64,000 bases of DNA from Sphaerolaimus hirsutus (Eukaryota > Nematoda > Chromadorea > Monhysterida > Sphaerolaimidae): assembly GCA_964036195.1 (NCBI GenBank), contig OZ038451.1, positions 27,483,927 through 27,547,926 of the forward strand, read 5' to 3'. Position 1 is the first letter of the stretch, and each line of letters starts with the position of its first letter. The position numbers and the translations under genes were made by a program. The notes below the pieces were generated by a model. It was not told where the DNA came from, did not search any database, and was given only the letters and a program-made list of their open reading frames with translations. This document shows, one piece after another, positions 197 through 63,605 of this stretch.

Positions 197-849
197 TAGG
201 GTGTCAAATTTCCGTTTTCCGTTTTCCGTTTCCGTTTTCCGCAGGCAATTTTTTTCCGTTTTCCGTTCCGTTTTCCGGCTGCTGAAATTTTTTTTCCGTT
301 TTCTGTTCCGTTTTCCGGCAACTTTTTTTTCCGTTTCCGTTTTTCCGGCTCATTTTCCGTTTTCCAGCAATTTTCAGTTTTTCCGCCTTTTTTTTCGTTT
401 TCCGCCTCAATTTCCAGTTTTTCCGCCTTTTTTCCATTTTCTGCCTCAATTCTCCATTTTTCCGCCTCATATTACCTTTTTCTGGCCCAACTTTCTGTTT
501 TCTGATCAGCCAAACTGGTAAAAATTCATGCAGATTGTCAATGATGTGAAAAATTTTCTGTTTCCAGCAAAACTACTGCAAATTTTTTCCACTTCCAGCA
601 AAATTTCAGCAAATTTTATCCATTTTCCAGCAAAATTTCAGCAAGTTTTTCCATTTCCGTGCTAATTTGATTTTTCCGTTTCCGTTTTTCCGGCCTCTTT
701 TTCCGTTTTCCAGCCACTGAAAATTTTTTTCCGTTTCCGTTTCCCGCCAAGTCCAATTTTTTTCCGTTTTCCGTTCCGTTTTCCGGACGCTGAAACAATT
801 TTTCCGTTTCCGTTTCCGTTTTCCGTAGAAAAATTTTGTTGACACCCTA
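197..849. mobile_element. hAT-type MITE with TTTTCCG arrays, copy 1
   Basis: Ends TAGGGTGTCAAA and TTGACACCCTA are inverted and flanked by the exact 8-bp duplication AATGTGTC (189-196 and 850-857). The interior is arrays of CCGTTTTCCGTTTCCG. The 129-aa and 91-aa ORFs across it are repeat translations. Confidence 0.92.
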
Positions 850-919
850 AATGTGTCTACTTCTTTGTTACATGAGTACACATGCCAAATTTCAGCTCAG
901 AGCAGTTAGCGGTTCTTAC

Positions 920-1867
920 TAGGGTGTCAAATTTCTGTTTCTGTTTTCCCTTTCGCTTTTCCACATTTTACCGCTTTTTTTACCTTTTTGTTTTCCATTT
1001 TCCATCAGCTGAAATTTTTTAACTTTTCCATTTTCTGGCAGCCAAAATTTTTCACCTTATCATTTTCCATTTTCTGGCTGAAAATTTTTTACCATCCCGT
1101 TTCCATGTTTCCAGGCCATTTTTCAATTTTATGGCTTGATTTTCAGTTTTTTGGCTTGATTTTCAGTTATCTGGCATTTTTCCATTATTTTTCCAATCAG
1201 TATTTATCTTTTTCTTTATGTGAAACTGCATGCCAAACACATAAGTAATTTTGGACACATACTTGGCTATTTACACAGGTCCCGGCCGGCGACCGGTCCC
1301 CAGTGAAAAATAATTTTTTTCAAAGGTCAATAATTGGTGTGTATGGGTTGCTTGCATGTTAATTAGATAAATTACCACCAAATTTATATGCACAAAATTT
1401 TTGCAAGACAGTTACACGCATTGATGCATTTTCTTTGTACAGGTGTATAATTTTTTTTTGGATTTGTCTGAATTTTGGCATGTGAGTACTCCTTCAAATA
1501 GTGAGTATGCATGCCAAATTTCAGCTCAGCGCGGTTACTGATTGTTTTTTTATTGATACTTCAATTTTGTTCAATCACTGTATTTTTGTATAGTGATCGA
1601 AATCCTGCCGGGGACCGGTCCCCGGCAACATCTAAATGGCCCTGACCGGGGTAAAACGTTTCCGGTGAGAAAGTTTTTTTTCAGTAAACAAATAATTTTG
1701 GTCCCCGACCGGGGATGTTCGTCCCCAACCGTTGATGTTCATCCCCGACCGGGGATGTTCGTCCCCAACCGTTGATGTTCGTCCCCGACCGGGGATGTTC
1801 GTCCCCGACAGGGGAAAAATTTACCTTTCCATTTTCAGTTTTTCATAAAAAAATTTTTTGACCCCTA
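920..1867. mobile_element. hAT-type MITE of the same family, copy 2, with nested fold-back
   Basis: Left end TAGGGTGTCAAA, right end TTTGACCCCTA, exact 8-bp duplication GTTCTTAC (912-919 and 1868-1875). A fragment of the fold-back family (about 1278-1815) lies inside it, making three levels of nesting. Confidence 0.88.
1700..1815. repeat. 20-bp tandem array with CCCCGACCGGGG core
   Basis: About 5.5 units of a 20-bp word, GTCCCCGACCGGGGATGTTC, alternate with a variant reading CCCCAACCGTTGATG. The core is palindromic. It forms the centre of the inner fold-back. Confidence 0.85.
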
Positions 1868-2257
1868 GTTCTTACCAGTCCCCAGTGGGATTTTGTTCAC
1901 TATACAAAAATACAGTGATTGACAAAAATAAAAGCATTAAAAAATAAGAACCACTAACTGCTCTGAGCTGAAATTTGGCATGCGTACTCACTAAACGAAG
2001 TAGTCAACACATTGAGACAAATTGAAGTAACACACAAAAATTTAGACAAATAGAAAAATTTCTATACACCCTCCTAAAGAATATGCTAAGTTACTCCATT
2101 TTATCCCTCTTGACCCCCCCTGTTAGTTGAGTGTATAAAAAAATAAAAAAATACCTGCTCCCTCTAAAAAAACCCATTCTCTTGATCTTCCATCCCATTC
2201 CAATTGATGTCTGTGAAAACATTCATGGCAAAAATATATGTTACGTTTGTTAAATAA

Positions 2258-6752: not shown

Positions 6753-9209
6753 CTGCAAATCTTGTTTGATCGTGCTGCTATTTATTTACTACTGACTTGA
6801 ATAAGTCTCACTCAATAGAATAACTCGAACCCTTGAATAACTGTTGGATGCTGCCGTTCTATATTCTTTTCACCAATGTTTTTCACACATTTTTCATTTG
6901 AACGAAGTGTTTTTAAGGTAATATGAACAACATTTTTATATCAGAGGATCCACTCAAAAAAACAAACAAATTTGAAAACAACACTGAATCATAGTTCTGA
7001 ACACGCGTTGAATGTTCTTCCCACCCATTTTTTTAAAAAAATTCTTGGGATTTTGGCACTCTTCCCGTGTAATTTCTAACTGCCATTTTATTGAAGGTGC
7101 CGTTCTATTGGGGGTATGCCGTTAAATTCTACGAAATATGATAATTTGAAAATCCACCCCAACCCCAATCTCACCCTTATTCTTCTTCTCCTTCTCCTCC
7201 TGACAATCATTTTTATACAGGAATTGATGCAGCAAAGTAGGGCAAATGTTATTAGGGCGCACGAAATGCCCAAAACTGCCGGCAGAAAGGCGCCGTAGGG
7301 CTTTTTCTGAAGAAATTGTAAGTGAGGGGTCATTTGATGTGCAATTGTACAGTGTACATAAATACACGAGGGTTGAGAATTTAAAAAAATTTGGGTTTGA
7401 TTATTGGGTCGATAAAAGTTTGGGTTGGGTATCAGTTTCAAAAATTTTGCAGGGCTCGTGTCAGTCGTGTGGCTTCTTTAATCAAATTATGGTAACGTAG
7501 TGTGCAAATCATGCTGTCCGACCACCAGGGGTCTCCTAGGGGGGGGGCTGGGGGGGGGGCTGCCCCCCCCCAAATCGGCCAGCTAGCTATCTATCCCGGA
7601 GGCCGCTCAGCTATCTATCTACCCCAAGGCAAAATTTTTGCCTACTACCCCCAAAGACCCCCCCCCCAAATCGCTCAGCTATCTATCTATCTGGAGTGGT
7701 TTTTGAGAAATTTTGCCCCAATTTTCGCTCAAAATCACCAATTTTCGCACCTTTTTATAGTTTTTCACCTTCAACATCGTGCTTTCCGGCTATATACATG
7801 GTTATTTACCTATTTTTAGCCATTTTATACCTACTTTTGGCCACTTTTAAAAGGTTCTTAGCGATTTTTTTCCCCTTTCTGCCTTCTTAACATTGAAAAA
7901 GCCTATATATTTTGCCCCCGCCAGCCCCCTCAAGCCCCCCCAACCCCCCCAGCCCCCCCCCAGAAAATTTTTTCAGCTATCTATCCCTCCGGGGGAGCGA
8001 TTTGCTATCTATCCAGCCCCCGCGAGGGCCAAAATCCTGGAGACCCCTGCCGACCACTATACCTTTTTTATAAACGTTTTTCGTCGATCTTCGATTCCAC
8101 AATGGCCCACACACGCTAGTTGACATCGACACCAAATGTCAACTGGTGCCGATCCCGATTCAAAGCTTGCGTTTGAAGAACGCCGTTCGTCTGCTCATCA
8201 GCAAGCTTTGTATCGGGAACGACACCAGTTAACATTTGGTGTCGATGTCAACTAGCGTGTGTGGGCCCAATGGATGCGTCTATTTCCATAGGTCTATGAG
8301 TCCAAAAAATTAATTTGGACAAAGTGATCTGCCAGTAGGTAATGCATGTCCAGTGGGTTTGCTCGGTGAATATCATAAAATTCCAAATATTGATTGTAAA
8401 CTGTCACATTTACCGCCTATTCTTTCAACATAATGTGAACAGTCGCTTCATTTTTTCTTTCTGGAAAAAACTGAACTCACAAGCAAATCCTTCAGTTCCT
8501 GCATATGAAGATAAATTTCTAATAAACTTTCAGCCTCGCTGGAATTTCCCTTCGATGTTGAGATGGTCCCATTTTCCAACACTTGATAAAAAGTTTTTAG
8601 ATTTGAATTTTCATTTACTCCATTTTGAATTTCATTTTCATTATGTGCTGTTTGCTGGCTGGTTTCAGGTGAATTTTTTGATTCATCTGATGAGCTCAAG
8701 TCTGCTTCACTGGTATTAGTACTTTCTGATGACTCTGTGTTAAGAATTTGATGATTTTGCACATAATTTAAATGTTAGGTACCACTCCCTGACCACACCC
8801 TGTAAGATCGCATGTAAAATGTCAATTGCCATGCAAATTGTCAAAAATTTTGAATTTTATTGTTTTTTTTCATTGGTTTGACTATTTTACATATCATTTT
8901 ACATCACTTCTGATACTTTACATGACATTTTACAGTTTAATTGGTCTGTCTTGTAGCAGCCCCCTGTGTTAAAAAGTCATTTTGTCAAACAAACTCCTTT
9001 AGATGATCACAAATTGACAAATATTGGCGGAGAGTTTGAAAATGTCCAATTTAATATGCCTCATACTCACCATTTTTGGCTACTGCAGTAACATTCCTTC
9101 CATTACAACTTTGTAATGTATTGAAAATTATAAACACCAGAATAAGTGTTGTTTGTGTTATTAAGGATTTTCTGGATAGAAGTGAACTCATCCTTGACCC
9201 TGACCAATT
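6656..9209 (-). CDS. small single-pass (type I) membrane protein, 4 coding exons, family unknown
   Basis: I rebuilt four exons (9209-9071, 8734-8481, 7306-7164, 6752-6656) that join in frame to 210 residues. In order: a signal peptide or anchor (SLITQTTLILVFIIFNTL); a Ser/Asn/Glu-rich lumenal part with several N-glycosylation sequons (NVT, NTS, NGT, NSS); a membrane helix (FLPAVLGISCALITFALLCC); an Arg cluster of seven in a row; and an acidic end SESDDEDF. Topology by the positive-inside rule is outside-in. The plan recalls small type I proteins such as FAM174 or TGN-type proteins, but that is resemblance of layout only. Introns carry MITEs. Moderate confidence as a gene; the exon 3 donor is uncertain. 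Confidence 0.6.
6825..7140. mobile_element. GCCGTTCTATT-family MITE relic
   Basis: Carries GCCGTTCTAT near both edges, as in the better copies at 25131-25359 and 31702-32144. It lies in the last intron of the minus-strand gene. Confidence 0.5.
7164..7306 (-). CDS. minus-strand membrane protein, exon 3 (transmembrane)
   Basis: Acceptor tttcttcag, phase 0. Encodes KKPYGAFLPAVLGISCALIT, FALLCCINSCIKMIV and an Arg run. A consensus-like donor (gtgaga) at 7175 would be phase 0 and does not fit the last exon. Weaker donors after 7164 or 7158 give the phase 2 required. The 3' edge is thus uncertain, or a small exon is missing. Confidence 0.5.
7526..8049. mobile_element. hAT-type MITE with CTATCTATC words, copy A
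   Basis: Ends CAGGGGTCTCC and GGAGACCCCTG are perfect inverted repeats flanked by an exact 8-bp duplication CCGACCAC (7518-7525 and 8050-8057). The interior has CAGCTATCTATCTA arrays near each end and poly-C runs. Confidence 0.93.
8104..8264. mobile_element. short palindromic MITE (CCCACACACGCTAGTTGAC)
   Basis: Two inverted arms of about 45 bp, CCCACACACGCTAGTTGAC... and GTCAACTAGCGTGTGTGGG, around an AAGCTTGCGTTTGAAG centre. A related core is seen at 18400-18620. Confidence 0.8.
8481..8734 (-). CDS. minus-strand membrane protein, exon 2 (lumenal region)
   Basis: Acceptor cttaacacag, donor gtgagt; phase 1 in, phase 0 out. Encodes SSESTNTSEADLSSSDESKN through GNSSEAESLLEIYLHMQELK, ending DLL. 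Acidic, Ser-rich, disordered-looking, then a short amphipathic helix. This is the only long open minus-strand frame locally with biased protein-like composition. Confidence 0.65.
9071..9209 (-). CDS. minus-strand membrane protein, exon 1 (signal peptide)
   Basis: Encodes MNWSGSRMSSLLSRK, then LITQTTLILVFIIFNTL and CNGRNVTAVAKN. An in-frame TAA precedes the first ATG (9209); a second ATG lies at 9191. Donor gtgagt, phase 1. An acceptor-like ttatttccag ends at 9235, so this exon may extend to 9234 with a 5' UTR exon further up. Confidence 0.6.
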
Positions 9210-11074: not shown

Positions 11075-11201
11075 TAGTGATGTAAAATCGCCATGGCGCT
11101 ACGTTGCTGTGGCGCCATTGGCGCCTAGCGCTGAGAGTTGGAAAAGCGCCATGGCGCTTTTGGCGCTTGGCGCCAAAGTCCTGGCGCTTTTCACATCACT
11201 A
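11075..11201. mobile_element. hAT-type MITE with GGCGCC core
   Basis: TAGTGATGTAAAA and TTTTCACATCACTA ends; flanks CCCCACTC and CCCCAGTC match at 7 of 8 bases. The interior is nearly all GCGCC/GGCGC words. Confidence 0.8.
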
Positions 11202-13524: not shown

Positions 13525-14066
13525 GTTGTGTATACTCCGTGGACCGCACGCTATGCATTTTTCTGAACGAAACACTCCATCATGACGTCATCGTCATTAA
13601 AGTCAGATGTGTTTAAAAAATTAGGCACAAAACATGTTCAAGGACGTATCCAGGGGGGCGGGGGGGCTGCAGACCCCCCTTCCCGGGGTGAGACCTAAAA
13701 AGTCCCGGAAAATTCAACTTTTCCTATATATTTTTCGATGTTTCTTAAAAAATTTGCTCGCAAGCGCGCAATATCATTCCCATGCATTGTATTTACAGCG
13801 GATCGGCCCATGTAAACCAATTTCCTTGGAAATGAACAGATTTTTTGCAAATTTCGCTGTATATGTATACGCCCCGTAAACAAGCAGCCCGCCGCTCAAA
13901 AATCCTGGATACGTCCCTGAACATGTTGGATCTACTCGGTTCCGCCTTTTTGTCTGTAAAATGTTATTCTTTCTGCGAAGGTGCATACATAAGTATCCTG
14001 CTCACACACATATTGACCAAGACATAAGTTATTCCGGGTGAGTTCTTTGCAGGTCTGCAGAGTACA
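13525..14066. mobile_element. GACGTCATC/ACATAAGTA repeat hosting a nested MITE
   Basis: The left part (GTATACTCCGTGGACCGCA, TGACGTCATCGTC) and the right part (ACATAAGTATCCTG, TGCAGAGTACAC) recur at 15395-15592, 21194-21985, 23785-23850 and 60070-60180. A hAT MITE (13639-13919) is inserted in it. Confidence 0.55.
13639..13919. mobile_element. hAT-type MITE, CAAGGACGTA(T/G)CCAGG family, copy 1
   Basis: CAAGGACGTATCCAGG and CCTGGATACGTCCCTG ends with an exact 8-bp duplication AACATGTT (13631-13638 and 13920-13927). Confidence 0.92.
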
Positions 14067-21193: not shown

Positions 21194-21985
21194 TTTTTAC
21201 ACGGCGGACCGCATTCTATGCATTTTTCTGATCGAAACATATCATTATGACGTCATCATTAATAAAATAAAAATTGTTCAAAAAAGAAAACAAAATTTCT
21301 GGCAGGCAACATAATATCTTGGTTGTGCTTCACTAGGCTTTTTTCTTTTTAAAATATTTTTTTGGAGAATGTGAATCATGCTTAACTACGGCGTTGGATT
21401 GGTGCCGGCGCGTAAGACATAAGTATTTATGTGCGGATGCATAACTACTCTGCTGTCCGCCGAGCAGGGGTATGAAAGGGGGGATTGGGGGGGGGGTACC
21501 CCCCCAAAACTGCCTAGCTATCAATCTATCCCGGACGCCACTCAGCTATCTACCTATCTATCCCGGAGGCAAAATTTTGGGCTACATATCCCCTAAACCC
21601 CCCCCCCCCAAATCGGCCAGCTATCTACCTATCTGGAGCGATTTTTGAGTAACACGACCCCAATTTTCGCTCAAAATCGCTATTTTTCATTGCTTCTTAT
21701 AGATTTTCATCTCCAAAATTACTAGTTCATGCATCTTACTGCCTACTTTCAGCTATTTTTAGTAGTATTTATATGTGCTTATATAGGTACCCATTTTCAC
21801 CTACTTTTAGCTATTTTTCCTATTTTCTTCCTTCTATGCCTATATATTGAACCCCCGCGAACCCCCCAACCCCCCCCCCCCAGAAAATTTTCAGCTATCT
21901 ATCCCTCCGGAGGAGCGATTTGATATGTATCCAACCCCCCGGAGGGTCGAAATCTAGAAGACCCCTGCCACCGAGTATAGGTAAT
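21194..21985. mobile_element. GACGTCATC/ACATAAGTA repeat hosting a nested MITE
   Basis: Same family as 13525-14066 (GGACCGCATTCTATGCATTTTTCTG near 21204). A CAGGGGT MITE (21475-21967) is inserted at its CTGTCCGCCGAG site. Confidence 0.6.
21475..21967. mobile_element. hAT-type MITE with CTATCTATC words, copy B
   Basis: CAGGGGT and ACCCCTG ends; flanks CCGCCGAG and CCACCGAG match at 7 of 8. Sequence and layout follow 7526-8049. Confidence 0.88.
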
Positions 21986-29236: not shown

Positions 29237-30344
29237 TGTAACTGCACTGAGGTAAAACATTCCTTTGCACTGTATTAAAATAGAATCAAGCCGAGAATAG
29301 TTTATTTTTTTAGTCTGTCTGGCTCTATTGAATGTTTTAATTAGGTATGCATGTGACGTGTTGCCCGCCCACATGATTCATAAAGTAATTACAAGGGGAG
29401 TTATGTACATATTTATAAGTAGTGATGTAAAGGCACCGGGGCACCGGTGCCCCGGTGCTGGGCACCGAAGGGCACCAGCACCGGTGCTGGTGCGGTGCCA
29501 TTGCAATCTTCAGGGGTGCCATGCCGGTGCCTGTGCCATTTTTTTCAGAATAGCACCGGTGCCGGTGCGGTGCGGTGCGGTGCCATTTTTTTGCCGGTGC
29601 CAAAGGTGCTAGCACCAGGGCAAAGTAAAAGGCACCACGAAAGGCACCGGGGAAGGCTTCATGTGCTGTGCAATTTTGTCCATAGTATGTGCATTATTTC
29701 AAAAAACAGCGATATATTTACCCAACCGTTTTTGCATATTTTGTAAACCTCCCATCAAATAAATATACCTACTGTGAAATCCATTATACCCAATACGTTA
29801 TCTGATGAGCGAATCTAAAATTTTCTTGAATTTTAAATCATTTTTATATTTTTTATTTATCTTACTTTTTTGTTCAAAATTTGTTGTCAGTTTATGATAG
29901 AGATAGTTCCATTCTCTGTACAACAACGACTCCGATCAGTAGACAATAGTGGCTATGGACATTGTAATGAATTAAATATTTTATCTTTCATTTGTAATCG
30001 TTGTAATTGCTTCATAAAAGCGATTGCCACATCATTCTGATCATTTTAAATGCTCAACCATCAAAATCGGTTGAAAATTCATGGAAATATGCACTTCCAA
30101 AGGTGAGACCACTGAGAAACTGCCCGATATTTACTTCAGAAATTCCAGCCCGGTGCGGTGCCTTTCGGTGCTAGCACCGGCAACCCACCGGTGCCCTTCG
30201 GTGCCGGTGCCATTTTTTCCAAAAGGCACCGGTGCCGGTGCGGTGCGGTGCCATTTTCTGGCCGGTGCCCCAGGGTGCCAGGTGCCCTTTTCATCCGTTG
30301 GCAAAGGTGCCGGTGCGGTGCGGTGCCATTTTTCCCGGTGCCTT

Positions 30345-30770
30345 TAACGGGGATGGTCCGGCCGTAAAGTAAACCCGGCCGTAAAGTAGAGGGTGCTACT
30401 TTAGGCCGGGCATCATTACGGCAGAGTTGTGCAAAGTACTGAAATTTTTTTCAAAGTAAATGTAAACATAAAGTATTTTATTTTTAGTCACACCTGAGTA
30501 CAGAGAAGTAAAAATTCGTTTTTTGAGTGATTTTTTGCTTTTATGCACTCAAAAAATGTTCTCAATCACGTTTTCTGTACTCGCGTACTTTCAAAAAGCA
30601 CGCGAGTAAGTGAGTACCAGTATTTTTTCAGGAGGAAACGTAAACGTATTTACGCAGCACTCGAGTATACGTATTTATCGAGTAAACGTAAATACGTTTG
30701 TACAACTATGCATTATGGCCGGATTTACTTTACGGCCGGGTTTACTTTACGGCCGAGTTCTCGCCGCCTT
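30345..30770. mobile_element. CGGCCGTAAAGTAAA element hosting a nested MITE, copy B (inverted)
   Basis: Reverse-complement counterpart of 17511-17945, including the nested MITE at the same internal position. Confidence 0.8.
30422..30710. mobile_element. nested hAT-type MITE (CATAGTTGTT family)
   Basis: Starts CAGAGTTGTGC, ends GTACAACTATG; flanks CATTACGG and CATTATGG match at 7 of 8. Confidence 0.85.
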
Positions 30771-30873
30771 TAACATCACTATTTATAAGGAATTGTTAGT
30801 CTTAAACTTTACCAATGAAAGAGATTTTCAGTGTGTTTCAGAATGTTTTCTTGAATGATGGACGGTATTATAC

Positions 30874-31362
30874 CATAGTTGTTAAAACGTATTTACATTT
30901 ACTCAAAAAGTACGTATACTTGAGTAGTTAGTAAATACGTTTACGTATACTTTAAACAAAAGTAGCTGTGCTCGCTTTTACGTATACTTTTTGAAAGTAC
31001 TCGAGCACAGAAAACGTATTTCAGATAGGCTTTGTTATGGGTTTGTTTCAAGGCAACGATGGAAAAAGGGAGAAAAAGCGGAAAATAGGAAATTTTTCCC
31101 CAAAAATAGCTTAAAATAGGTAAATAACACATGAACTAGTGAATTTGAAGGTTTTACTGGTCAAAAAAGTATGAAAATTGCGGCAAAAGTCCAAAAAATA
31201 CTCACTTTTACGTTTTCTGTGGGGAAAGTGTTTCACTCATGTTTACTCATGAGTAAAAGTAAAAAAAAACTTTACGTTTTCTGTACTCACAGGGTGAGTA
31301 AAAAATAAATACTTTACGTTTACGTATACTATGAAAAAAGTTCGATACTTTTAACAACTCTG
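30874..31362. mobile_element. hAT-type MITE, CATAGTTGTTAAAAC family, full copy
   Basis: CATAGTTGTTAAAAC and TTTTAACAACTCTG ends with exact 8-bp duplication TATTATAC (30866-30873 and 31363-31370). Confidence 0.92.
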
Positions 31363-53300: not shown

Positions 53301-56300
53301 GGAAACTGATATAAATATTAATATTGAGTGTTGAATGCATTTGAGTTTACTGGGATGGGTTATTTTTCATGATTATTGACTGTAGTTACCTAATAGGCAA
53401 CTCATTAACTCAACTAGACAAGACAAGACAACTCAACTACTTAACTCAGCATTATTTTTTTTTGATTTTGAGAAAATATTAGGGTGTCAAAATTTTTTTT
53501 TATGGAAAACGGAAACGGAGACGGAAAAAAAATTTCAGCAGCCGGAAAACGGAACGGAAAACGGAAAAAAATTTGCACTTGGCGGGAATCGGAAACGGAA
53601 AAAAAAATTCAGTGGCCGGAAAACGGAAAAATGGGCCAGAAAAACGGAAACGGAAAAATGGAATTTGCATGGAAATGGAAAAATTTGCTGAAATTTTGCC
53701 AAAAAAAAATGATAAAATTCGCTGAAATTTTGCTGGAAACAGAATTTTTTACATAATTGACAATCTGCATGACTGTTTACCAGTTTGGCTGGAACAGAAA
53801 AGAGAAAGTTGAGCCAGAAAAGGGTAAAATGAGGCGGAAAGCATAATATTGAGGCGGAAAATGGAAAAAAGGTGGAAAAACTGGAAATTGAGCTGGCAAA
53901 TGGAAAAAAAGCGGAAAAACTGAAAATTTAACCGGGAAACGGAAAATGAGCCGGAAAAACGGAAACAGAAAAAAGGTGGCCGGAAAACGGAACGGAAAAC
54001 GGAAAAAAAAATTCAGCAGCCGGAAAACGGAAAACATTTGCCTGCGGAAAACGGAAACGGAAAACGGAAAACGGAAATTTGACACCCTAGAAAATATAGT
54101 AAAATAAAATCTCAGAATAGTTAATTTTCTCTGAAAAAAAAAACTGAAAAAATAAATAAAAACATAGGTAAATCAGATATATTTAATATTTTCTTCGCTT
54201 AAAAATATAATCAATTCTCTCTGGAAAAAGTGTGGAGAAAATATGAATCAATATAAGATGCTTTGATATTTTCTGATATTTTAGAAATTGAAACATACAT
54301 CTCCCAAGTTTTTTTCCAATGCTATATACAATTGCATGCAAGGTCAGGTAATTTTTAATTTATGACCAACTAGGTAACTTTGCACAAATTTTATACAAAT
54401 TATAACATTTCACAGACAAGACAGGCCATTCGTTTCTGGTTTCCTTTAATGTCTGTTTCTGTTGAACCAAATCAAAGAGTAACAACCTCACGGTATTTTG
54501 AAATCTAGACTGCATTTACGTTTTTCATATCAGTGTTTCAATATTTTTCAAAACACAATATATTTACGTGCATTTATAGCACATTTTATTCACATATAAA
54601 GTACATATTGAGCGTTTTTATTCACATATTGAGCATATTAACATGCATGCTTTAAGTACTAATCAGCGTGCTTCCATACAAATACACATACAAAAATATA
54701 CACAATAATGAGTAAATGCAGGTGAAAAGTGCACCTGCAAATTGCATACTTCCTACTTCCCCTAGGTGCATACTTCCCCGGCACCCACTAAGCCAATTTG
54801 AACACATAAAGGAATTTGTATATCTACACATACAGTAAATACAATGTTCACACTAGGTCCTATCTGCCTACAGCTGGGTTTTCATGCTCCCTTTTCCGTG
54901 TTGAAATGCCATTTAGTGTTGGAAATATTCCACATTGAAAATGTGAATCTAAATTCATTTATATAGTAGCCATTTTTTGAGAAATTTGAATATTAATGTT
55001 GAATGAAAACAACAGATGTGAATGACTTCTGTCAGGTGGAAATGTAGTAGTTTGTAAAATGTACCTAAGTGAAGTGACAAGTAAGCTCAAAACTGACAAG
55101 TTCATTTCCTAAAAATGCTGTCACTTGTATAATAACTTGTTTATTATGGTTTGTCAACACTTGCAACTTTATTTACCACTCGCCACCTTCCTCGGCACTT
55201 GTTCACTTGAAAAATTCCTGGCACAATGCCAGTAATTCTCACATTTCCCATCAAAATCTATCAATACTTCCCAACTCAACGGAACAGAGATAAACAGTGC
55301 ATGCATTGTTAGGTTCTAAGCGAGGTAAAAGCACTGTAAGCACGCATTGTTGGCTCCAATATTTAGCACATGCATTTTGCATTGAACTGCAACATTTTGT
55401 AGATAGTACACTACTGGTAAAATGTATTTAAATTCATGTCACTAATAGGAAATGGGCCCAATCCATATTTTCACATCTAAAGTCATTTCATGTATTTTTT
55501 ATGTGTGTAACTATAATGTTTTATTGAACATGTAAATATGTATTTTAGGTATGTGGCAATTGACCTTTGTTAATGAACATGTAGGTTTTTTTATTAAATA
55601 CATCTGTAAAAAACGTTTCACATCTCATTTCACAGCACTACAACAACATCAAAAGCGAAACCCACTGTACCTTTTTGGCTGCCAGCAAGCACAAAGGGCA
55701 CCAGAGTCAGTTCAACATTGCCACCTACAACTACTTCAGCACCAAGTACATCGAGCTCACCAGCAACAAAACCAGTGACCGAGAACATTTGGACACCCCA
55801 ACCCGATCCCTGGGAACCAGACTTTGGGCTTTCACTGACTACTACAGTCAGTAGAGAGGTTTGGTCAAAAAGTTCCGAGACACCCAGAGCTGTGGAAAAA
55901 GCTGCAGGTATGTGGGTATGGGGTAGTGATTGATATTAAGTGCCCAAATAAGGTGCCATGGTGGCATACTGCCATTCCATCACTAGTCTGGAGCCAGTGG
56001 TTTTTCACGTGGTAAAGTAGCTTTGGAGTTGGGATAAAGGATATTGTGAACATGTCAAAAATGACAGAAAAATGTATTTAGGCCATTTGTGTAGAAAAAC
56101 GTTCCATTTTTTAAATTACTTTACAATTTTGACTGATCTCTTATCCTACAGACACAGAGAAGCCGACTGGTGCCGCCAAAACGGAGCCTAGCAAAACATC
56201 CATGATAATTTTGCTGTCATTAGGCCTCCTTTTGACTATAATTATCATTGTGCTAATTGTGTTCAAGTGCTACAACAGGAGATCTGTCGCTGCTGGTAAG

Positions 56301-58261
56301 TGAAATTGGCACTTAAAAATATTTTTGTTTAATTGAAGAGTTCTAATTTGTTTGTACTTTTCACTAAAATATGAAAAAAGAGTTGAAAGAATGAACCTAT
56401 ATTATTAGTAATCACCCCAGGGGCCAGATTTAATTCTCCCTACAGATTTGTAGGGTAAGGCGTACGCCCGATAGATTTTTTAAAGTTCAGCCGCATCGAC
56501 GCACGTGCACCGAGAGCAAGGCGGGTTGTAAAATATACGAAACCATCCCTTAAGGTCGCCGATATTGCAATATGGCGTATATCACTTCGATTTTGGCACG
56601 GAAATTATGATTTCGTCATTTCTTGGCCATCGGCCAATTCGTTTTTTATTTTATTTTCTCGGGCGGGTTACTCGCATAAGTCGCGCTTTTGTGTAGTCAG
56701 GTGGTCACTTTTTTGGTGTTCACTGCCTACAACCGAAACCATGAGGGCAGCGACAAGAATGAAATGCATGCACGAGCGTACAAAAGCGCGACTTATGCGA
56801 GTAACCCGCCCGACAAAATAAAATAAAAAGCGAATTGGCAGACGGCCAGGAAATGACGAAATAGTGATTTCCGGGCCGAAATCGAAGCGATATACGTCAT
56901 ATTGCAATATCGGCGACCTTAAGGGATGGTTTCGTATATTTTTTTCAAACCGCCTTGCTCTCGGTGCATGTGCGTCGATGCGGCTGAACTTTAAAAAATC
57001 TATCGGGCGTACGCCCTACCCTACAAATCTGTAGGGAGAAATAAATCTGGCCCCTGGCGTTTGTCATCAAAGAATTTAAATGGGAGGAATTTATCATACT
57101 GAACTCACTATTTGTTTACTAATTATTTTTGCAAACTTTCACCATTGAATACAGCAAAAATCGTAACAGCTACACGTGTTTACCAGTGCGGCACACACTA
57201 GTTTACTGTCAGTAAACTGAGAATTTAGGAAACTCATAAATCAGCTTTGAATGGCACTTGAGTTTACTGGAATGAGCTGTTTGGCAGCTTTAGTTAGCAG
57301 GGAGTGAACACAACTCATTACAATAAACTCAAATGCACTCAATTGCACTCAATGACTGATTCATGAGTTGCCCATTTCTTATAGATCGCTAGTAAACTAC
57401 CGTATGTCCTCAAATAAGTCTCCTGGGGAGTTATTTTTTTGCCAGTTTTTGAGGGGGGGGGGGTTATTCGAGGGGGCGGTAATTTTTACATCAGAATGTT
57501 CAGTGAAATTTATGATTGATTTACTGCGGGGTTTTTCGAGGGGGAGTTATTCGAGGGGGGGAGTTATTGTTGCCTCACACTCACTCATTGACTTATTCGA
57601 GGATATACGGTAGTGTGTACAGCAACACCAAATCCACCCACCTCACCCAACTATCCATCACACTTGCAGCGAGTGCGACGTCAGTGGCTGGTGGTTATGT
57701 CATAGATGCACCATTTGGAGCACCCGTGCCCATACAGAGTAGCACCACTGCTTATGCGCCACTGCCCAATATGGATGTGAGTTTTTGGGGTTTCTGTTTT
57801 TTTACCTGTTTTCATTGGAAATTTTGCAAGGGTTTGTTAATTTCAGCAGAAAAATTGTGGGGGGATTAATTTGAATTTTGAGGGGACTATTTGAGGAGGG
57901 ATCATTATTTTGCCAGAATTTTGTTTGTTACTTGACAAGGTACGAAATCGTTAATACAAACACTTTTCGTGAAAATTAGCAACAGAAGCATGTCATTGAC
58001 TGTTAGGTAATAAGCATTCATCATATTTGCATTAACAGTACCCCCTCCCTCACACTCGCACCGCACATGCAACTTTTTTGTCAAATATGCAAACATTTTG
58101 GAATTCAGCCCCCCCCCCCCCACATACAGGGTGGTGCAAGTCCCCCCGAACCCAATTTTGAACCACACCTCATAAGTGCACCAGCGAATGGGTTGGGAAT
58201 GGCTGGCAAAAATGGCACGGCTGGAAGGCGGAAAAAAGATTACAAGGAGTGGTATGTATGA
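38214..58261 (+). CDS. NRXN: alpha-neurexin gene, 29 coding exons (signal-peptide exon not securely found)
   Basis: Presynaptic single-pass adhesion receptor. In known neurexins the extracellular LNS (laminin G-like) and EGF modules bind neuroligins, LRRTMs and other partners, and the tail binds PDZ scaffolds such as CASK and Mint. I joined 29 exons by GT/AG sites; all phases agree and give 1,782 sense codons plus a stop. Order: LNS1, EGF1, LNS2, LNS3, EGF2, LNS4, LNS5, EGF3, LNS6, acidic Cys-loop segment, Thr/Ser stalk, one transmembrane helix, tail ending KDYKEWYV. This is the alpha-neurexin architecture at about the usual length. The first visible codon is split (two bases come from a missing upstream exon), so the signal peptide lies upstream, perhaps at 37189-37229. 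Oddities are an RGD in EGF2, an RRKR site in LNS6 and a cysteine-free LNS4. Family call is near certain; individual boundaries are inferred from sequence alone. Confidence 0.97.
38374..38787. mobile_element. hAT-type MITE, CAAGGACGTAGCCAGG family, copy 2
   Basis: CAAGGACGTAGCCAGG and CCTGGCTACGTCCCTG ends with exact 8-bp duplication TGAAAATG (38366-38373 and 38788-38795). Sits in the intron after neurexin exon 1. ORFs of 121-143 residues here are spurious. Confidence 0.93.
39124..39362 (+). CDS. NRXN: neurexin exon 2: LNS1 core
   Basis: Starts K-L-R-V-K-F-R-I-G, contains the LNS hallmark NDGEWHKM and ends LGVYVGGLPQ. One N-glycosylation sequon (NAT) is present. Acceptor ttcag, donor gtaatt; phase 1 in, phase 0 out. 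Confidence 0.93.
39432..39558 (+). CDS. NRXN: neurexin exon 3: end of LNS1
   Basis: Encodes the last LNS1 strands, with HFDGSIRNLMYRTL matching the 'F.G.I.NL' signature that closes this LNS domain. Separated from exon 2 by a 69-bp intron. Phase 0 in, phase 1 out (donor gtttgt). Confidence 0.92.
39940..40101 (+). CDS. NRXN: neurexin exon 4: EGF1
   Basis: A single-exon EGF-like module with six cysteines: DDYCKSAS, SYCKNNGICYS, KCNC and EFCEV. The first two cysteines are further apart than in vertebrate EGF1. Flanked by phase-1 introns on both sides, as is usual for shuffled EGF exons. Confidence 0.93.
40260..40417 (+). CDS. NRXN: neurexin exon 5: LNS2, first strands
   Basis: Encodes VSFFGNDYLYFNFED, then ENITLSFKTSQSKAFLFYTGDQE, the typical first half-sandwich of LNS2. 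One NIT sequon. Phase 1 in, phase 0 out with strong donor gtgagt. Confidence 0.92.
40615..40856. mobile_element. MITE with GCGCACACTAGTTTTCAC ends, neurexin intron 5
   Basis: GCCCGCGCACACTAGTTTT and AAAACTAGTGTGTGTAGGGC are inverted ends; interior AT-rich. Confidence 0.7.
40895..41062 (+). CDS. NRXN: neurexin exon 6: LNS2 centre
   Basis: Starts DYLHISLQQGSVV, the DYxxLxLxxG motif of neurexin LNS2, and contains FNDNTWHTLIAHR, the conserved NDNxWH turn. Phase 0 to phase 0; acceptor ttcag, donor gttggt. Confidence 0.92.
41102..41388. mobile_element. AT-rich MITE with AGCATTCC ends (neurexin intron 6)
   Basis: Ends AGCATTCCAAAAAT and ATTTTTGGAATGCT are inverted repeats, flanked by an exact 8-bp direct repeat GTATGTAG (41094-41101 and 41389-41396). 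The interior is AT-rich with no ORF. Degenerate relatives appear near 14705-14880, 32155-32368 and 54168-54335. Confidence 0.7.
42300..42430. repeat. GTAAAATGTC repeat relic, neurexin intron 6
   Basis: CATGTAAAATGTC at left and CATTTTACATAACATTT at right, inverted words of the CCCTGTAAAATGTC family. Confidence 0.5.
43004..43159 (+). CDS. NRXN: neurexin exon 7: end of LNS2
   Basis: Encodes LTLTVDHTVSD through GLVSEGFAGCMKE. The closing GFxGCMKE is the LNS terminal signature and its cysteine pairs with one in the next exon. Phase 0 to phase 0. The 1.9-kb intron before it shows no extra exon-like frame. Confidence 0.92.
43521..43764 (+). CDS. NRXN: neurexin exon 8: LNS2/LNS3 junction
   Basis: Begins IIYHAGEY and runs through GQVVFNCGDTLVPEPISFLQ to AYLRLPAWSVMSGG. 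FNCGD closes LNS2 and the rest opens LNS3. Phase 0 in, phase 1 out (gtgtgt). Confidence 0.9.
43840..44000 (+). CDS. NRXN: neurexin exon 9: LNS3
   Basis: Encodes IKTIEPDGLILYNG, then NFLAVELIDGHIYVVIDIGTG, matching the LNS3 strands with a 'FxAxELxDGHxYxxxDxGxG' pattern. Only 75 bp of intron separates it from exon 8. Phase 1 in, phase 0 out. Confidence 0.94.
44198..44359 (+). CDS. NRXN: neurexin exon 10: LNS3
   Basis: Encodes LSDNMWHSISLHTQ, the LNS 'DxxWH' turn, and GTVQVDGVHTDFSLP. It follows a poly-C acceptor tract and is clearly more GC-rich than neighbouring exons. Phase 0 to phase 0. Confidence 0.9.
44667..44799 (+). CDS. NRXN: neurexin exon 11: LNS3, GG and GYLGC motifs
   Basis: Encodes LTGSMYLGGVEFRN, then LKKGYLGCVKSFTVNG, the YLGG and GYxGC motifs that end LNS3. 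Phase 0 in, phase 1 out (gttagt). Confidence 0.92.
44835..45400. mobile_element. fold-back element in neurexin intron 11
   Basis: Roughly 190-bp inverted arms begin and end CAGGGGTGGGCATTTTCAGT / ACTGAAAATGCCCACCCCTG. The spacer (about 45040-45200) resembles 4840-4960 of this window. The CAGGG end is hAT-like, but I see no clean 8-bp target duplication. Confidence 0.7.
45684..46016 (+). CDS. NRXN: neurexin exon 12: end of LNS3 plus EGF2 with long loop and RGD
   Basis: Finishes LNS3 (EIGCIEPPF) and contains all of EGF2: KACKS, YCKNEAHC, KCDC and VTCAE give six cysteines. The spacing between cysteines 1 and 2 is about 25 residues, against a handful in vertebrate EGF2, and this loop carries PRGDIS (RGD at 45875-45883). 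Phase 1 in, phase 1 out. The first two of those facts are read from sequence; integrin binding would be inference. Confidence 0.92.
46270..46358 (+). CDS. NRXN: neurexin exon 13: start of LNS4
   Basis: Short exon encoding AVRLAFDEDGEMLQITKP to QAEDLQ, the first LNS4 strand. Phase 1 in, phase 0 out. Acceptor tatag; correct phase with both neighbours is the main support. Confidence 0.85.
46440..46825. repeat. fold-back element with perfect 50-bp central palindrome
   Basis: Inverted arms (for example CAGCGATTCAGCAACG near 46498 and its partner near 46755) lie around the palindrome 46532-46581, whose two 25-bp halves are exact reverse complements. No coding potential. It lies in neurexin intron 13. 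Confidence 0.7.
47009..47173 (+). CDS. NRXN: neurexin exon 14: LNS4
   Basis: Encodes IKFRTDRHHGALFLAAVAHR, then IQLVLSGARLKLRLNFGG, matching the LNS pattern 'F.T....G.L......L.L..G.L.L..N.G'. Unusually rich in His and Arg. Phase 0 to phase 0. Confidence 0.9.
47476..47587 (+). CDS. NRXN: neurexin exon 15: LNS4
   Basis: Encodes LADDNWHSAKIKRRANRLWL, the conserved DDNxWH turn and next strand, ending LDGVWDFVP. Phase 0 in, phase 1 out. Confidence 0.92.
47653..47962 (+). CDS. NRXN: neurexin exon 16: end of LNS4
   Basis: Encodes DSIFVGQAP, an acidic loop, NFNGELSSLVFNGENLFE (the 'F.G.LS.LVFNG' signature), then the LNS4-LNS5 linker. Vertebrate LNS4 has a cysteine pair around this point; no cysteine occurs in exons 13-16 at all. 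Phase 1 in, phase 2 out. Confidence 0.92.
48828..49026 (+). CDS. NRXN: neurexin exon 17: start of LNS5
   Basis: Encodes VSFTSQLGYAKLHRM, then LHFQFRTLEKNGLIMFVGN and EFLAVELNEGK, typical LNS5 opening strands. Phase 2 in, phase 0 out. The 865-bp intron upstream holds only a faint relic (48420-48490) of the TTCGAGGGG family. Confidence 0.93.
49291..49575 (+). CDS. NRXN: neurexin exon 18: LNS5
   Basis: Encodes IHFILSPDQN through ADFEWHNVAVIERNLPKHEL to KIMFENMK. FEWHNVAVIERN corresponds to the 'QWHNVVVSRD' stretch of LNS5. Phase 0 to phase 0, donor gtttgt. Confidence 0.92.
49779..49953 (+). CDS. NRXN: neurexin exon 19: end of LNS5
   Basis: Encodes GPLYIGGMQN, then GFRGCIASLEVGSKKIDLF and EKGCI. 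The LYIGG and GFxGCIASL motifs with two cysteines close LNS5. Phase 0 in, phase 1 out. Confidence 0.95.
50271..50396 (+). CDS. NRXN: neurexin exon 20: EGF3
   Basis: Complete EGF module: AQCNSNTHSCKNGAICVQKW, then RCDCTHTTFVGKKCDQ, with six cysteines in the standard spacing and close to vertebrate EGF3. Phase 1 on both sides. Confidence 0.96.
50520..50701 (+). CDS. NRXN: neurexin exon 21: start of LNS6
   Basis: Encodes STTYEWSGKTESAIVYEYP, then DKFSFAFKTKSANAFLL and NEYITVRT. It corresponds to the 'TTYIFGKGGALITY' start of LNS6, the neuroligin/LRRTM-binding domain of known neurexins. Phase 1 in, phase 0 out. Confidence 0.92.
51098..51269 (+). CDS. NRXN: neurexin exon 22: LNS6 core
   Basis: Encodes YISIAYNLGTQEHRM, then DNGRRHVVRFYRNEANATLW and LDGQVPVVKEPFG, matching the 'NVGT...DGKYHVVRFTR...NATLQ' stretch of LNS6. 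NAT sequon conserved. It ends in phase 1 at the position of vertebrate splice site 4. Confidence 0.93.
51583..51896 (+). CDS. NRXN: neurexin exon 23: end of LNS6 with RRKR loop
   Basis: Encodes PQLKTLSQVRYIIVG, an inserted basic loop containing KQKNGRRKRSE (RRKR at 51669-51680), then YKGDIIGLNFNNLNILDMAA, the 'F.G.ISGL.YN.L..L..AA' end of LNS6. The RRKR-S sequence fits the furin/proprotein-convertase consensus; cleavage is inference. Phase 1 in, phase 0 out. Confidence 0.92.
52265..52495 (+). CDS. NRXN: neurexin exon 24: acidic linker, Cys loop and Ser-Gly site
   Basis: Encodes the segment after LNS6. It holds IPCPDSDEVTCNP, matching the short cysteine loop found near the membrane in vertebrate neurexins (Cys codons at 52349 and 52373). 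It also holds DKIEGSGDPW, a Ser-Gly with acidic neighbours (52472-52489), at the place of the heparan-sulfate site of known neurexins. Phase 0 to phase 0. Confidence 0.9.
52965..53122 (+). CDS. NRXN: neurexin exon 25: Thr/Ser-rich stalk
   Basis: After APILPP the exon is almost only Thr and Ser, with ACA/TCG/ACT/AGT codon runs that look like an expanded microsatellite. This is the mucin-like, O-glycosylated stalk of neurexins. The antisense frame gives an artefactual poly-Val ORF. Phase 0 in, phase 2 out. The length is likely to vary between individuals. Confidence 0.88.
53480..54089. mobile_element. hAT-type MITE with GGAAAACGG arrays, intron 25
   Basis: Starts TAGGGTGTCAAA and ends TTTGACACCCTA, flanked by an exact 8-bp target duplication GAAAATAT (53472-53479 and 54090-54097). 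The interior is built from variants of GGAAAACGG, the reverse complement of the arrays at 197-849. ORFs here simply read the repeat. Confidence 0.9.
55636..55907 (+). CDS. NRXN: neurexin exon 26: second half of stalk
   Basis: Encodes STTTTSKAKPTVPFWLP, then LPPTTTSAPSTSSSPATKP and WTPQPDPWEPDFGLS. Pro/Thr/Ser-rich with several Trp; continues the stalk. Phase 2 in, phase 1 out (gtatgt). The upstream intron is the longest of the gene, 2.5 kb. Confidence 0.88.
56152..56295 (+). CDS. NRXN: neurexin exon 27: transmembrane helix
   Basis: Encodes TEPSKTSMIILLSLGLLLTI continuing as IIIVLIVFKCYNRRS: one hydrophobic segment of about 22 residues (about 56202-56264), followed by a basic stop-transfer stretch. 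Phase 1 in, phase 1 out (gtaagt). Confidence 0.94.
56418..57056. mobile_element. large fold-back element, intron 27
   Basis: Arms of roughly 285 bp, nearly perfect inverted copies, starting CAGGGGCCAGATTTA and ending in CCCCTG. They surround a short centre near 56700-56760. The arms are more GC-rich than flanking intron. No clear target duplication. It could extrude as a cruciform or give a hairpin transcript. Confidence 0.85.
57186..57365. repeat. CACACTAGTTTACTG MITE relic, intron 27
   Basis: GGCACACACTAGTTTACTGT start as in 40615-40856; carries AAACTCA words, no clean right end. Confidence 0.45.
57398..57612. mobile_element. TACCGTA...TTCGAGGGG MITE, intron 27
   Basis: Ends TACCGTATGTCCTC and GAGGATATACGGTA are inverted; the interior repeats TTATTCGAGGGGG words. 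Same family as 9823-10187, 22797-23223, 28851-29236 and others. Confidence 0.75.
57670..57776 (+). CDS. NRXN: neurexin exon 28: cytoplasmic tail, first part
   Basis: Encodes SATSVAGGYVIDAPFGAPVP, then YAPLPNMD. No catalytic motif; neurexin tails are short and lack enzymatic domains. Phase 1 in, phase 0 out (gtgagt). Confidence 0.88.
58130..58261 (+). CDS. NRXN: neurexin exon 29: C-terminal tail with PDZ ligand
   Basis: Encodes GGASPPEPNFEPHLISAPAN through GRRKKDYKEWYV and a TGA stop. The end matches the vertebrate KKNKDKEYYV PDZ ligand with Trp for Tyr. An upstream acceptor at 58108 (ttcag), 21 nt earlier and in frame, would add PPPPHIQ through the poly-C run. Start is therefore 58130 or 58109. 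Confidence 0.95.
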   Translation, partial: GGASPPEPNFEPHLISAPANGLGMAGKNGTAGRRKKDYKEWYV

Positions 58262-60596: not shown

Positions 60597-60597
<1 letters not shown>

Positions 60598-61005: not shown

Positions 61006-61393
61006 TAGGGTTCAAACGATATCACTTTTCGATATCGATATTCGATATTCGATATTTTTTCAAAATTTTCGATATCGATATTCGATATTCGATATTTTTT
61101 CAAAATTTTCGATATCGATATTCGATATTCGATAGTTTTTCAAAATTTTCGATATCGATATTTGATATTCGATATTTTTTCAAAATTTTCGATATCGATA
61201 TTCGATATTCGATATTTTTTCAAAATTTTCGATATCGATATTCGATATTCGATATTTTTTCAAAATTTTCGATATCGATATTCGATATTCGATATTTTTT
61301 CAAAATTTTCGATATCGATATTCGATATTCGATATTAAAAAATGGTCGATATCCGATATTCGATATTCGATACGATATATCGTTTGAACCCTA
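61006..61393. mobile_element. hAT-type MITE made of a 40-bp GATATC tandem array
   Basis: Ends TAGGGTTCAAACGATAT and ATATCGTTTGAACCCTA are inverted, flanked by exact 8-bp duplication ATGTTGAA (60998-61005 and 61394-61401). The interior is about eight copies of a 40-bp unit: GATATCGATATTCGATATTC followed by GATATTTTTTCAAAATTTTC. Confidence 0.94.
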
Positions 61394-61401
61394 ATGTTGA
61401 A

Positions 61402-62009
61402 CTAATCATAATACAGTATACTCGGATGACATTACATCGTACATTTTTCCGGAGGAAACACTCCATCATGACGTGATCAATTTTGTTGCCATCCTCATCT
61501 CTCGCCATCACGTCGTCTTCGTCACGTATTCCATAAGTTCTCGGCTGGCCGTCTGCCAGCCGAAGATATAACTCCTATCTGTTTGTAGAGTATCGTGTCT
61601 GCCGAGTATACATTTGTCAAACAATACGGTTCCGTGTAGCATATTTTTACGTTTTCTCTGGTACCCGGGTAATTGTGCCAGGAAAACGTAACAAAGCGTA
61701 ACGGTATTTTTGGAAAGCGTAAACGTAAACGTAAGTATAAATACCCGAATAACCGGGTATTTCGGGTAAACGTAATTACGTTTTCGCAACTCTGGTTCGT
61801 TCTGAAAAATGGATAGCGTGCGTTCCTCGAATAAAAACATATTTTGACCAATAAAATAACAATATACATAATCTACCAAATACATTGATACCAAGGTTAC
61901 CTGATAAGAAAACAATTCTGTTTTTTTTGGGTGGGGTAGATTTACTGTAGATTTCACAATGACGTCTACAATAAGTTCACGTTTACATAGTAAAGCACGT
62001 TTAAACAGC
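61402..62009. other. no gene; CGTAAACGTAAA relic
   Basis: 61640-61800 has ACGTAAACGTAAACGTAAG and TTACGTTTTCGCAACTCTGG words of the CATAGTTGTT family; 61440-61480 resembles the GACGTCATC repeat. The 149-aa minus ORF is repeat-derived. Confidence 0.5.
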
Positions 62010-63605
62010 TACCGTATTTCCTCGAAATACCCCCCCCCCTCGAAATACCCCCCTCGTTCTACTCCCCCCTCTCGGGACCAACGATGGAAAAAACACAGAA
62101 ATTGAACACAGAAACTCATTGAGTTTCTGTGTTTTTGTTTTACACAGAAACACGGAAACTCATAAATTTTGAAAAACTCAAAACTCATATGAGTTTTTTT
62201 TTGGAGAACACAGAAACACAGAAACACGGAAACACAGAAAAGTTTTTTGAGTTTTTGTGTTTTTTTCAGCGAAGCAGTTGACTGCACATTAATTCAGTTA
62301 AACTAAACAAGATAAAATAAGCATGTATAGTACATAATGTATTCATATTTTATGATGGTACAAAAAAGAAATTCAAGATGGCATGCACATCTCATGGTGG
62401 ATTAGACAATTTAAGTTTTGACATTCAAGTATACCTTATTACCTTGAATTAACCCCCCTCAAAATGAACTGGTGAAATAATTAGCCCCCCCCCCCCCTTG
62501 AAATACCCCCCTCTGGGATGATGTACATCATGTATCCAATGTACATGATGTATTTATTACTGCTAGTTTGCATCGCAGCTACACATAGACTGTACTAGGT
62601 TGTGTAGCTATCTACATGTTTATTTCAAATATATCCTGTTTGTACGCATTCATAACCTGTTTTGGGTACGTAAATGCCTATTATTTTCTATGATCCTTTC
62701 AAAACTTTCTGATGAAATAATAAACCCCCATGGGGGTATTTCAAGGTAAATGGTAGTTGTAGTTCAAATCAATTCCGTAGTCTTCCATACAGTGCACATC
62801 CATTGAAGAATTTTGGAGTACTGCGTAAATTGTTGTTTCTGGGCATTTTGTTGCTGGTGTTGTGATGTTGATGTCCTCATTGTGGACATTTTTATGGACT
62901 TTTTTGACACTTGAATGAATACACAAATGTTATGTGGGGTTAAAACATGTGTAAAACCAATATTTTATAAGAAAACCACTGTTTCCAGATCGAAATGCTG
63001 TAAATCGAAAACAAAATTTGGGAAAAACTCAAATTTTTTGGATAAAACTTGAGTTTTTTTTAGAAAAAAACTAAAAAAACTCAAGTTTTTACAAAAAACA
63101 CAGAAATAAAAACAGAGTTACTCAAGTTTTTTTTGAGGAAAAAACTCAAAACACAGGTATTCATTTTTGAAAAACTCAAAACACAGAAAGTGTTTTTTTT
63201 TTGAGAACTTACCCATCGTTGCTCGGGACCACTATGAAACAATCACCCCCTCCTCGAAATACCCCCCCCCCAAATTGAGTGTAAACGGAACGTACATGAC
63301 AATAACTGTAGTTTGTGTTCTGTGTACTGCAGAACACACGTTAAAACAATGTCGGTGTCACGTTAGAACGTGTACATACCATCTACATACTAATATTAGT
63401 CTACAGATCCTTATAAATGGCGGTTTTTGTTGCATTTTTCAACGTCTGCGTACGTTTCAGATGACAATTTCGTACTTGGTTTTCAAAAATTTTCTTGTGA
63501 AATAATAACCCCCCCCTCGAAATACCCCCCTCGTTTAATCCCCCCCCCTCTCGGGGCCACTATGAAACAATCACCCCCCGGGAGGTTTTTGGGGGAAATA
63601 CGGTA
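62010..63605. mobile_element. TACCGTATTTCCTCGAAATA MITE split by a nested element
   Basis: TACCGTATTTCCTCGAAATA at left and GAAATACGGTA at right, with CCCCCCTCGAAATACCCCCC words. It is interrupted at CTCGGGAC by 62079-63221; the uninterrupted phrase is seen at 63549-63574. Confidence 0.82.
62079..63221. mobile_element. 1.14-kb hAT-type element with CACAGAAAC words
   Basis: Ends CAACGATGG and CCCATCGTTG with exact 8-bp duplication CTCGGGAC (62071-62078 and 63222-63229). Arms at 62085-62270 and 63010-63205 are arrays of ACACAGAAAC/AAACTC words. An older TACCGTA-family relic (about 62430-62760) lies in the middle. Confidence 0.88.

Follow-up and report, generated by a model that had tools for sequence, protein, structure and literature searches.

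Several families of transposable elements built around arrays of short words lie in a stretch of 64,000 nucleotides from the nematode Sphaerolaimus hirsutus (GenBank assembly GCA_964036195.1, 348 Mb, contig OZ038451.1; G000:C2:27483927-27547926), which we call the window. We consider it highly probable that these arrays form the subterminal repeats of several hAT transposon lineages, the word of each array being the likely binding site of that lineage's own transposase. The elements have inverted tips and 8-bp target site duplications (TSD), the arrays have a defined position and a family-specific word, and elements of four lineages contain hAT domains. Both ends carry the same word, mostly in equal orientation in the families tested, and an array-only element of the GATATC family has the make-up of two fused arrays.

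The families are named as follows. Family A has tips TAGGGTGTCAA and the word AAACGG. B1 (GGCGC) and B2 (GGCACC) have the common tip TAGTGATGTAAA, and C (GATATC) and C2 (GGGACC) the common tip TAGGGTTCAAAC. Family D is defined by CAGGGGTCTCC with CTATCTATC, E by CAACGATGG with ACAGAAA, F by tips CAGAGTTG with the word ACGTAAA, and I by tips TAACGATGGCAAA with the word TTCGAA. Loci fetched from the genome carry L numbers.

Arrays surround hAT transposase genes and their remnants

The hAT dimerisation region (PF05699) was searched across the genome, first at E<=0.001 and then at E<=10. The first search gave 28 matches, 26 of which could be placed by similarity or flanking ends (11 in A, 4 in C, 4 in F and 7 in I); the other two, L031 and L035, could be assigned to no family. 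Matches were located inside family-tipped elements with 8-bp duplications in nine cases for A, one for C (L019), three for F and five for I; one A duplication and that of L019 have one mismatch. In family C, L016 also has both tips, with five extra bases preceding the second duplication copy, and L097 is a 4341-bp element with a decayed transposase remnant and the TSD ATTATCTG. A C-terminal dimerisation region inside the element, as in hAT transposons, was thus found for A, C, F and I.

With L016 and L097 included, 20 remnant-carrying elements of these four families could be compared. Words were picked per family by eye, two related words being used for F. The outer 250 bp held 2 to 25 words on each side. 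The middle region was free of them in 16 of the 20 elements, and the remaining four had no more than 1.52 per 250 bp there, so that the concentration of repeats at the ends of transposase-bearing copies, as in Ac, was seen in 20/20. In the dimerisation region, remnants of A and C are about 53% identical and those of F and I about 46%, meaning that lineages with different words have different transposases.

The longest element (C3:40743-46748; L011+L055) belongs to family F and spans 6006 bp with the TSD CCTTGGCG. ACGTA, the most abundant at its ends among four words counted, reaches 12.5 and 10 copies per kb over the outer 400 bp versus 0.19 per kb inside. The C-terminal frame is Hermes-like, with matches to four distinct transposase sequences of Hermes (E 7.8e-13 to 2.2e-12), and once one GT-AG intron is spliced a zf-BED domain scores above its cut-off (E=4.1e-5). 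This N-terminal BED zinc finger was found in family F alone; the A, C and I copies that we read keep C-terminal remnants only, and no BED finger was seen there.

Relisting PF05699 at E<=10 gave 108 candidates, 32 of them above the cut-off beyond the first 28. Six of these 32 sites were examined together with some 600 bp of flanking sequence and none was inside a complete B element; one, L103, lies amid family A words and has a nested 193-bp family I MITE. In a 5702-bp GGGACC element, four C-terminal queries gave no hAT match (best E 0.54), and the DNA was non-coding and repetitive, with no frame that could be recognised. Matches of the first C query to B1 loci by tblastn were rejected as an artefact, that query having begun with a translated GGCGCC array.

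Ends and target duplications in the window and across the genome

We scanned the window for 11-bp inverted tips with at most one mismatch, flanked by exact 8-bp duplications. This gave 16 cases, compared with 3 summed over 20 dinucleotide-preserving shuffles and 2 for a reversed-not-complemented pattern. Five of the 16 are among eight elements named in an earlier annotation of the window (hereafter the original prediction), and part of the 16 are other things, namely C runs and one long inverted repeat counted three times. The claim that the named elements have inverted ends and 8-bp duplications was borne out, with matching ends in 8/8 and a duplication that is exact in six and has one mismatch in two. 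The array words were also as given, one per family, in hAT-type mobile elements. As to position, the arrays had been described as the interior of the elements; they directly adjoin the tips and are subterminal, long copies holding a non-array centre between them.

Family A is represented by two miniature inverted-repeat transposable elements (MITEs). Both ends of the first (197..849, + strand, word TTTTCCG/AAACGG, TSD AATGTGTC) match the hAT-bearing copies L009 and L014, whereas its centre does not. The second (53480..54089, - strand, TSD GAAAATAT) is 83% identical to the first over the full length. The B1 MITE (11075..11201, + strand, tips TAGTGATGT, word GGCGC) has a duplication with one mismatch (CCCCACTC/CCCCAGTC). 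At 23249, a TAGTGATGTAAA tip with one mismatch leads into a GGCGC array (15 words in 200 bp), an extra B1-like end. The B2 element (29420..30781, + strand, tips TAGTGATG, TSD TTTATAAG) has GGCACC/GGTGCC arrays at both ends, at about 29432-29650 and 30150-30345, around a centre of about 500 bp. It corresponds to a 936-bp element type with a nested insertion near the right end (30350..30765, approximate limits), which is missing from the 936-bp copies and carries a 17-bp word, CGGCCGTAAAGTAAACC. This insertion has a duplication of about 9 bp seen by eye, GCCTTTAAC, and probably belongs to another superfamily.

The family C element (61006..61393, + strand, tips TAGGGTTCAAAC, TSD ATGTTGAA) is an array-only MITE of seven 40-bp GATATC/GATATTC units and an 88-bp end piece. 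Family D has two copies, 7526..8049 (+ strand, tips CAGGGGTCTCC, word CTATCTATC with G/C runs, TSD CCGACCAC) and 21465..21967 (+ strand), whose start had been placed ten bases off, at 21475, and whose duplication has one mismatch (CCGCCGAG/CCACCGAG). The family E element (62079..63221, + strand, words ACAGAAA and AACTCA) has shorter tips (9 bp, CAACGATGG) and an exact duplication, CTCGGGAC; a second copy was found at L020:1816-2646 (TSD GCCGTCAC). Finally, a family F MITE absent from the original prediction lies at 30874..31362 (+ strand, tips CAKAGTTGTTAAAA, words ACGTAAA/TACGTTTAC, TSD TATTATAC). Its tips are the same as those of the 6006-bp hAT element and its words are similar.

Across the genome, first-look candidates, which were not verified singly, numbered 3622 for A, 1483 for C and 1947 for B2. 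Failing duplications would have spoken against mobility, and they proved exact in most copies. Family A had a different exact 8-bp duplication at each of 8/8 fetched loci, window copy included. For B2, identical 8-bp flanks were found at 10/10 loci (11 elements including that of the window; the script reported elements with one mismatch or none). Exact duplications were present at 11/12 C loci (L044 gave no complete element), in 8/11 facing B1 pairs (the other three with 2, 3 and 7 mismatches), in 9/11 C2 pairs and in all five family I elements checked among the seven dimerisation matches. The C2 pairs were chosen to span 130 to 5702 bp. These are the properties of MITEs (short, non-coding, inverted tips, high copy number) with the 8-bp target site duplication of hAT transposons.

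Two observations concern GATATC-type copies. At L017:38-1314 a GGCGCC element (TSD CTTATGGT) is inserted in GATATC-type hAT sequence, the uninterrupted site being present in the related copy L019:1086-2474. At L097:21-6584 the left 2.2 kb of the 4341-bp element is apparently tandem-duplicated with the same 8-bp flank, which is either real or an assembly artefact.

Array-only copies and changing centres

Long C copies showed how array-only elements are put together. In L047 and L049 the left side has three 40-bp units followed by the centre, and the right side has a partial unit, two full units and the 88-bp piece; each of the nine long C copies L046-L054 has a short transposase remnant in its centre. 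Units 1-3 of the window copy match the left array of L049, with a GATAG variant at unit 3 in both long copies, and unit 4 matches its right array with a TTTGATA variant, further units following. In L045 one plain unit is followed by the right-array variant, and L100 is a third, different array-only copy (TSD CATTTAAC). L044 was considered as another and rejected, its centre being present. Judging from this alignment of units, the window GATATC copy is a left and a right array fused through loss of the centre. Its make-up would fit a deletion between direct repeats of the two arrays, and its two extra units need further duplication.

Few copies are array-only: of the facing-end pairs formed by the first 100 listed C1 sites, 1/38 for C and 5/32 for C2 were shorter than 400 bp. 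The window copies of family A match hAT-bearing copies at both ends and lack their centre, and in B1 the arrays are common to copies whose centres fall into at least three groups.

The original prediction had proposed that interior arrays arise or are replaced within mobile ends and so become a source of satellite DNA, which we now regard as improbable. It is true that, with identical ends, array length differs among the array-only GATATC copies (388 bp with 7 units, 228 bp with 3 units, and 190 bp; 388-228 = 160 = 4 x 40), and that the 5702-bp GGGACC element contains an internal stretch of a different repeat. However, array replacement between fixed ends found no support. Arrays travel with the ends and are subterminal in transposase-remnant copies, and in B1 it is the centres that vary and not the arrays. 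The GGCACC arrays are conserved as well: all 40 scored B2 candidates match at 95-100% (window copy 100%, others 95-97%), and the ten complete copies outside the window (L057-L065) measure 904-937 bp, nine of them 934-937 bp. Moreover, no long tandem word array outside an element was seen in the window or in the 106 loci that were read, a sample that is not a genome-wide tandem-repeat survey.

Words mostly keep one direction at both ends

Although the tips are inverted, the words run mostly in one direction at both ends when read on one strand. We tested A, C, C2, B2 and F. Orientation was equal at both ends in 19/19 A elements, with no counter-oriented copy, and in 7/7 C2 elements (seven of the 11 read). 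It was equal in 10/12 C elements, the two others being ties, and in 6/8 B2 elements, with one opposite and one tie. In F the majority agreed in 5/6 elements, in some by one copy, and one was a tie. For C, a 15-base stretch of the unit was scored because GATATC is palindromic.

Orientation bears on the idea that the words act through DNA shape, palindromes such as GGCGCC, GATATC and TTCGAA forming hairpins that aid excision or replication. Several words are indeed their own reverse complement or nearly so, but AAACGG is not palindromic and stood on one strand only in every A element tested, and GGGAC, mostly on one strand, does not favour hairpins. We hold this to be very unlikely.

Word and tip are linked within families, and one tip can carry different words

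Words were counted within 200 bp inside and outside the tips in the window and the fetched loci, one tip mismatch being allowed, so that chance tips are included. The mean was 8.05 inside versus 0.54 outside for A (n=37 tips) and 13.33 versus 0.13 for C (n=15). B tips (n=22) had 5.55 GGCGC and 3.45 GGCACC inside, compared with 0.27 and 0 outside. Independent satellites merely flanking the ends, which had to be considered, are refuted by this drop and by duplications that sit outside the arrays, and we give them practically no chance.

Between families, the same tip can carry different words. The 12-mer TAGTGATGTAAA, which confirmed the claim that GGCGCC and GGCACC families share their ends, has 7815 sites in the genome versus 226 for the reversed pattern. 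Nine plus-strand sites among the first listed on C1, chosen regardless of word, ran into GGCGC (six), GGCACC (two) or neither (one); two of the six GGCGC sites have a common flank and are probably one duplicated site. GGCGC was present at both ends in 11/11 facing pairs among these listed TAGTGATGTAAA sites, one of which, L071, has two GGCGC and two GGCACC at its left end. Likewise, GATAT follows the tip at 3241 exact TAGGGTTCAAAC sites and GGGAC at 2549, and the reversed patterns have no site at all. In the C2 pairs GGGAC was found at both ends in 11/11; GATAT was absent from ten, and the other had two copies at one end. Families E and I also have AACGATGG in common and different words.

The 6-mer content of the arrays gave the same picture. 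Between left and right ends of one element, similarity was 0.82-0.93 in A, 0.86-0.98 in C, 0.69-0.89 in I, 0.78-0.87 in B2 (8 elements) and 0.61-0.94 in B1 (10 elements). In contrast, B1 and B2 arrays had a mean similarity of 0.04-0.05 despite their common tip, and other families 0.01-0.32 between them, with the maximum for I and E. Deamination of GGCGCC can give two products, GGCACC and GGTGCC. Derivation of the GGCACC arrays from GGCGCC by CpG decay was not supported, CCGG sites being kept and CpG observed/expected being 0.75 versus 0.67 for the window, but such decay may have been their ancient origin.

Arrays without function, inherited by all copies as the repetitive ends of one ancestor, would agree with the relatedness of the copies by descent. 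Yet the plan recurs with unrelated words in A, B1, B2, C, C2, F and I, each time with the same word at both ends, and a common plan filled with differing words is not what shared ancestry would produce. This possibility appears slightly weaker still than that of DNA shape.

Other features of the window and of the loci

A family with ends TACCGTATTTCCTCGAAATACCCCCC, an apparent TA target and word arrays was noticed by eye at 62010-63605 (approximate) in the window, at L037:573, at L038:4196-4636 (approximate) and in L057. In the window, this family's copy apparently contains the E element 62079-63221, and L037 has the same stretch free of it. A filled copy lies inside the B2 element of L038, and L057 has the uninterrupted site. 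At L041:2830-2985 (approximate), beside a hAT remnant assigned to no family, a short element CAGGGTTG...CAACCCTG with the TSD GTCACAAT and a AAATAAAAATAAAATGG array was seen by eye and may be one more word family.

In the window, 13639-13919 and 38374-38787 have tips CARGGACGTA and exact 8-bp duplications, with long G/C runs inside the latter. The scan also gave a long inverted repeat at 56468-57006 (tips CCGATAGATTT, extended match of at least 80 bp). Pfam matches to laminin-G (three frames) and EGF-like domains (one frame) at 39066-51292 (+ strand) suggest exons of an animal gene with long introns, possibly neurexin-like. Elsewhere in the genome, six BED domains at C1:7466186-7488779 and one at C1:7679975, that is seven of eight genome-wide BED matches within C1:7.47-7.68 Mb, lie away from the dimerisation matches, and this cluster may be a transposon-derived host gene.

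Discussion

In our proposal, many copies of a lineage's one short word are packed into about 200-250 bp next to each tip, on either side of a transposase gene or of what is left of it. Going by position and family-specificity, each word is most likely the binding site of its lineage's transposase, whose BED zinc finger would bind it. The cluster of sites at each end would assemble transposase on the DNA, and the conserved 10-12 bp tip would be cut. Non-autonomous copies would keep tips and arrays because the transposase needs both, and lose or change the centre. With the words of both ends pointing one way, the two arrays form direct repeats, and deletion between them would remove the centre and leave a short array-only MITE. 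Families in which no transposase was found presumably follow the same rule.

Several points weigh against this explanation. The original prediction looked to a hAT transposase for each kind of end. One was found for A, C, F and I, and none, among the sites read, for B1, B2, C2 or D, nor inside any E element, so that the hAT membership of these five rests on tips and 8-bp duplications. Frames along the whole length exist in the family F element only, where those outside the BED and C-terminal parts match no Pfam hAT family. None of the eight genome-wide BED matches lies beside a dimerisation match, in a search that would miss intron-split BED exons. Words are not seen at every tip: fewer than three were counted inside 5/37 A tips, neither word at 5/22 B tips (one of the five due to a nested element) and GATAT arrays at only 10/15 C tips, two of the other five belonging to one GGGACC element (L028). 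Similarity between left and right ends is weaker in F (0.37-0.64), D (0.61) and E (0.62), and 0.40 in the sole C2 element of that comparison (139 bp). The orientation rule rests on about four lineages, copies within a family not being independent. Finally, the plan is not confined to hAT elements or BED proteins, as the TA-target family and the family with a duplication of about 9 bp show it too by eye; clustering of binding sites may be widespread in this genome rather than peculiar to hAT elements.

The layout is close to that of known hAT systems. The maize Ac transposase binds AAACGG subterminal repeats (PMC3260210), and Ac/Ds elements have 8-bp duplications, 11-bp tips and short words clustered in the outer 200 bp or so (PMC3260210); family A carries the very same hexamer. 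In Ds2 elements filler DNA lies between preserved Ac ends, and in Ds-l4 elements some 30 bp of either end is preserved (PMC3260210); the B1 arrays kept around differing centres recall the Ds2 case. Unlike Ac/Ds, several lineages coexist here with different and denser words, and families with the same tip differ in word. The arrays described here run mostly in one direction.

In Hermes, BED domains bind subterminal repeats (PMC10368747). The 6-kb element resembles it in its C-terminal frame, its BED finger and its multiple subterminal sites per end, but the Hermes ends have 17 and 14 short motifs and not a near-continuous array (PMC10368747). Four hAT-encoded proteins have motifs that agree with the subterminal regions of their own elements, and a preference for CGG, CGC or AT-rich sites is frequent among proteins of this kind (PMC8097297). 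Domesticated CGG-binding proteins, which derive from hAT transposases, likewise show diverse DNA-binding motifs (PMC8097297); that diversity was measured across many species, whereas ours lies within one genome and is read from the elements. Xstir, miDNA4, BIV160 and Tetris of Drosophila are non-autonomous MITEs or foldback elements linked to tandem repeats and satellite DNA (PMC9659126). The repeats described here, in contrast, belong to the ends of the parent transposon, and neither the window nor the 106 loci yielded a satellite. Coral piggyBac-type MITEs, with conserved internal regions and less conserved tips (PMC2872659), are a different case. Among the open-access papers searched, none dealt with hAT families that, within a single genome, have a tip in common but differ in subterminal word.

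A further step can be suggested tentatively, and we think it somewhat less probable than its opposite: lineages may have repeatedly changed the word across both arrays while keeping the 12-bp tip, tip and word being separate modules, and one-directional arrays may mark left and right, enforce the pairing of left with right ends and, as a by-product, yield array-only MITEs through direct-repeat deletion. It is only partly clear how a hAT transposase distinguishes its own ends from those of related elements. With a common tip, wholly different words and thousands of exact tip sites for each member of the pair counted (C and C2), this one genome is a natural test of end recognition, in which the division of labour between tip and word is directly testable. 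The GATATC copies document in sequence a route from a long element to an array-only MITE. The word arrays predict the sequence that each BED finger should bind, and if tip and word are indeed separate modules, the genome of S. hirsutus would hold a natural code from word to BED finger.

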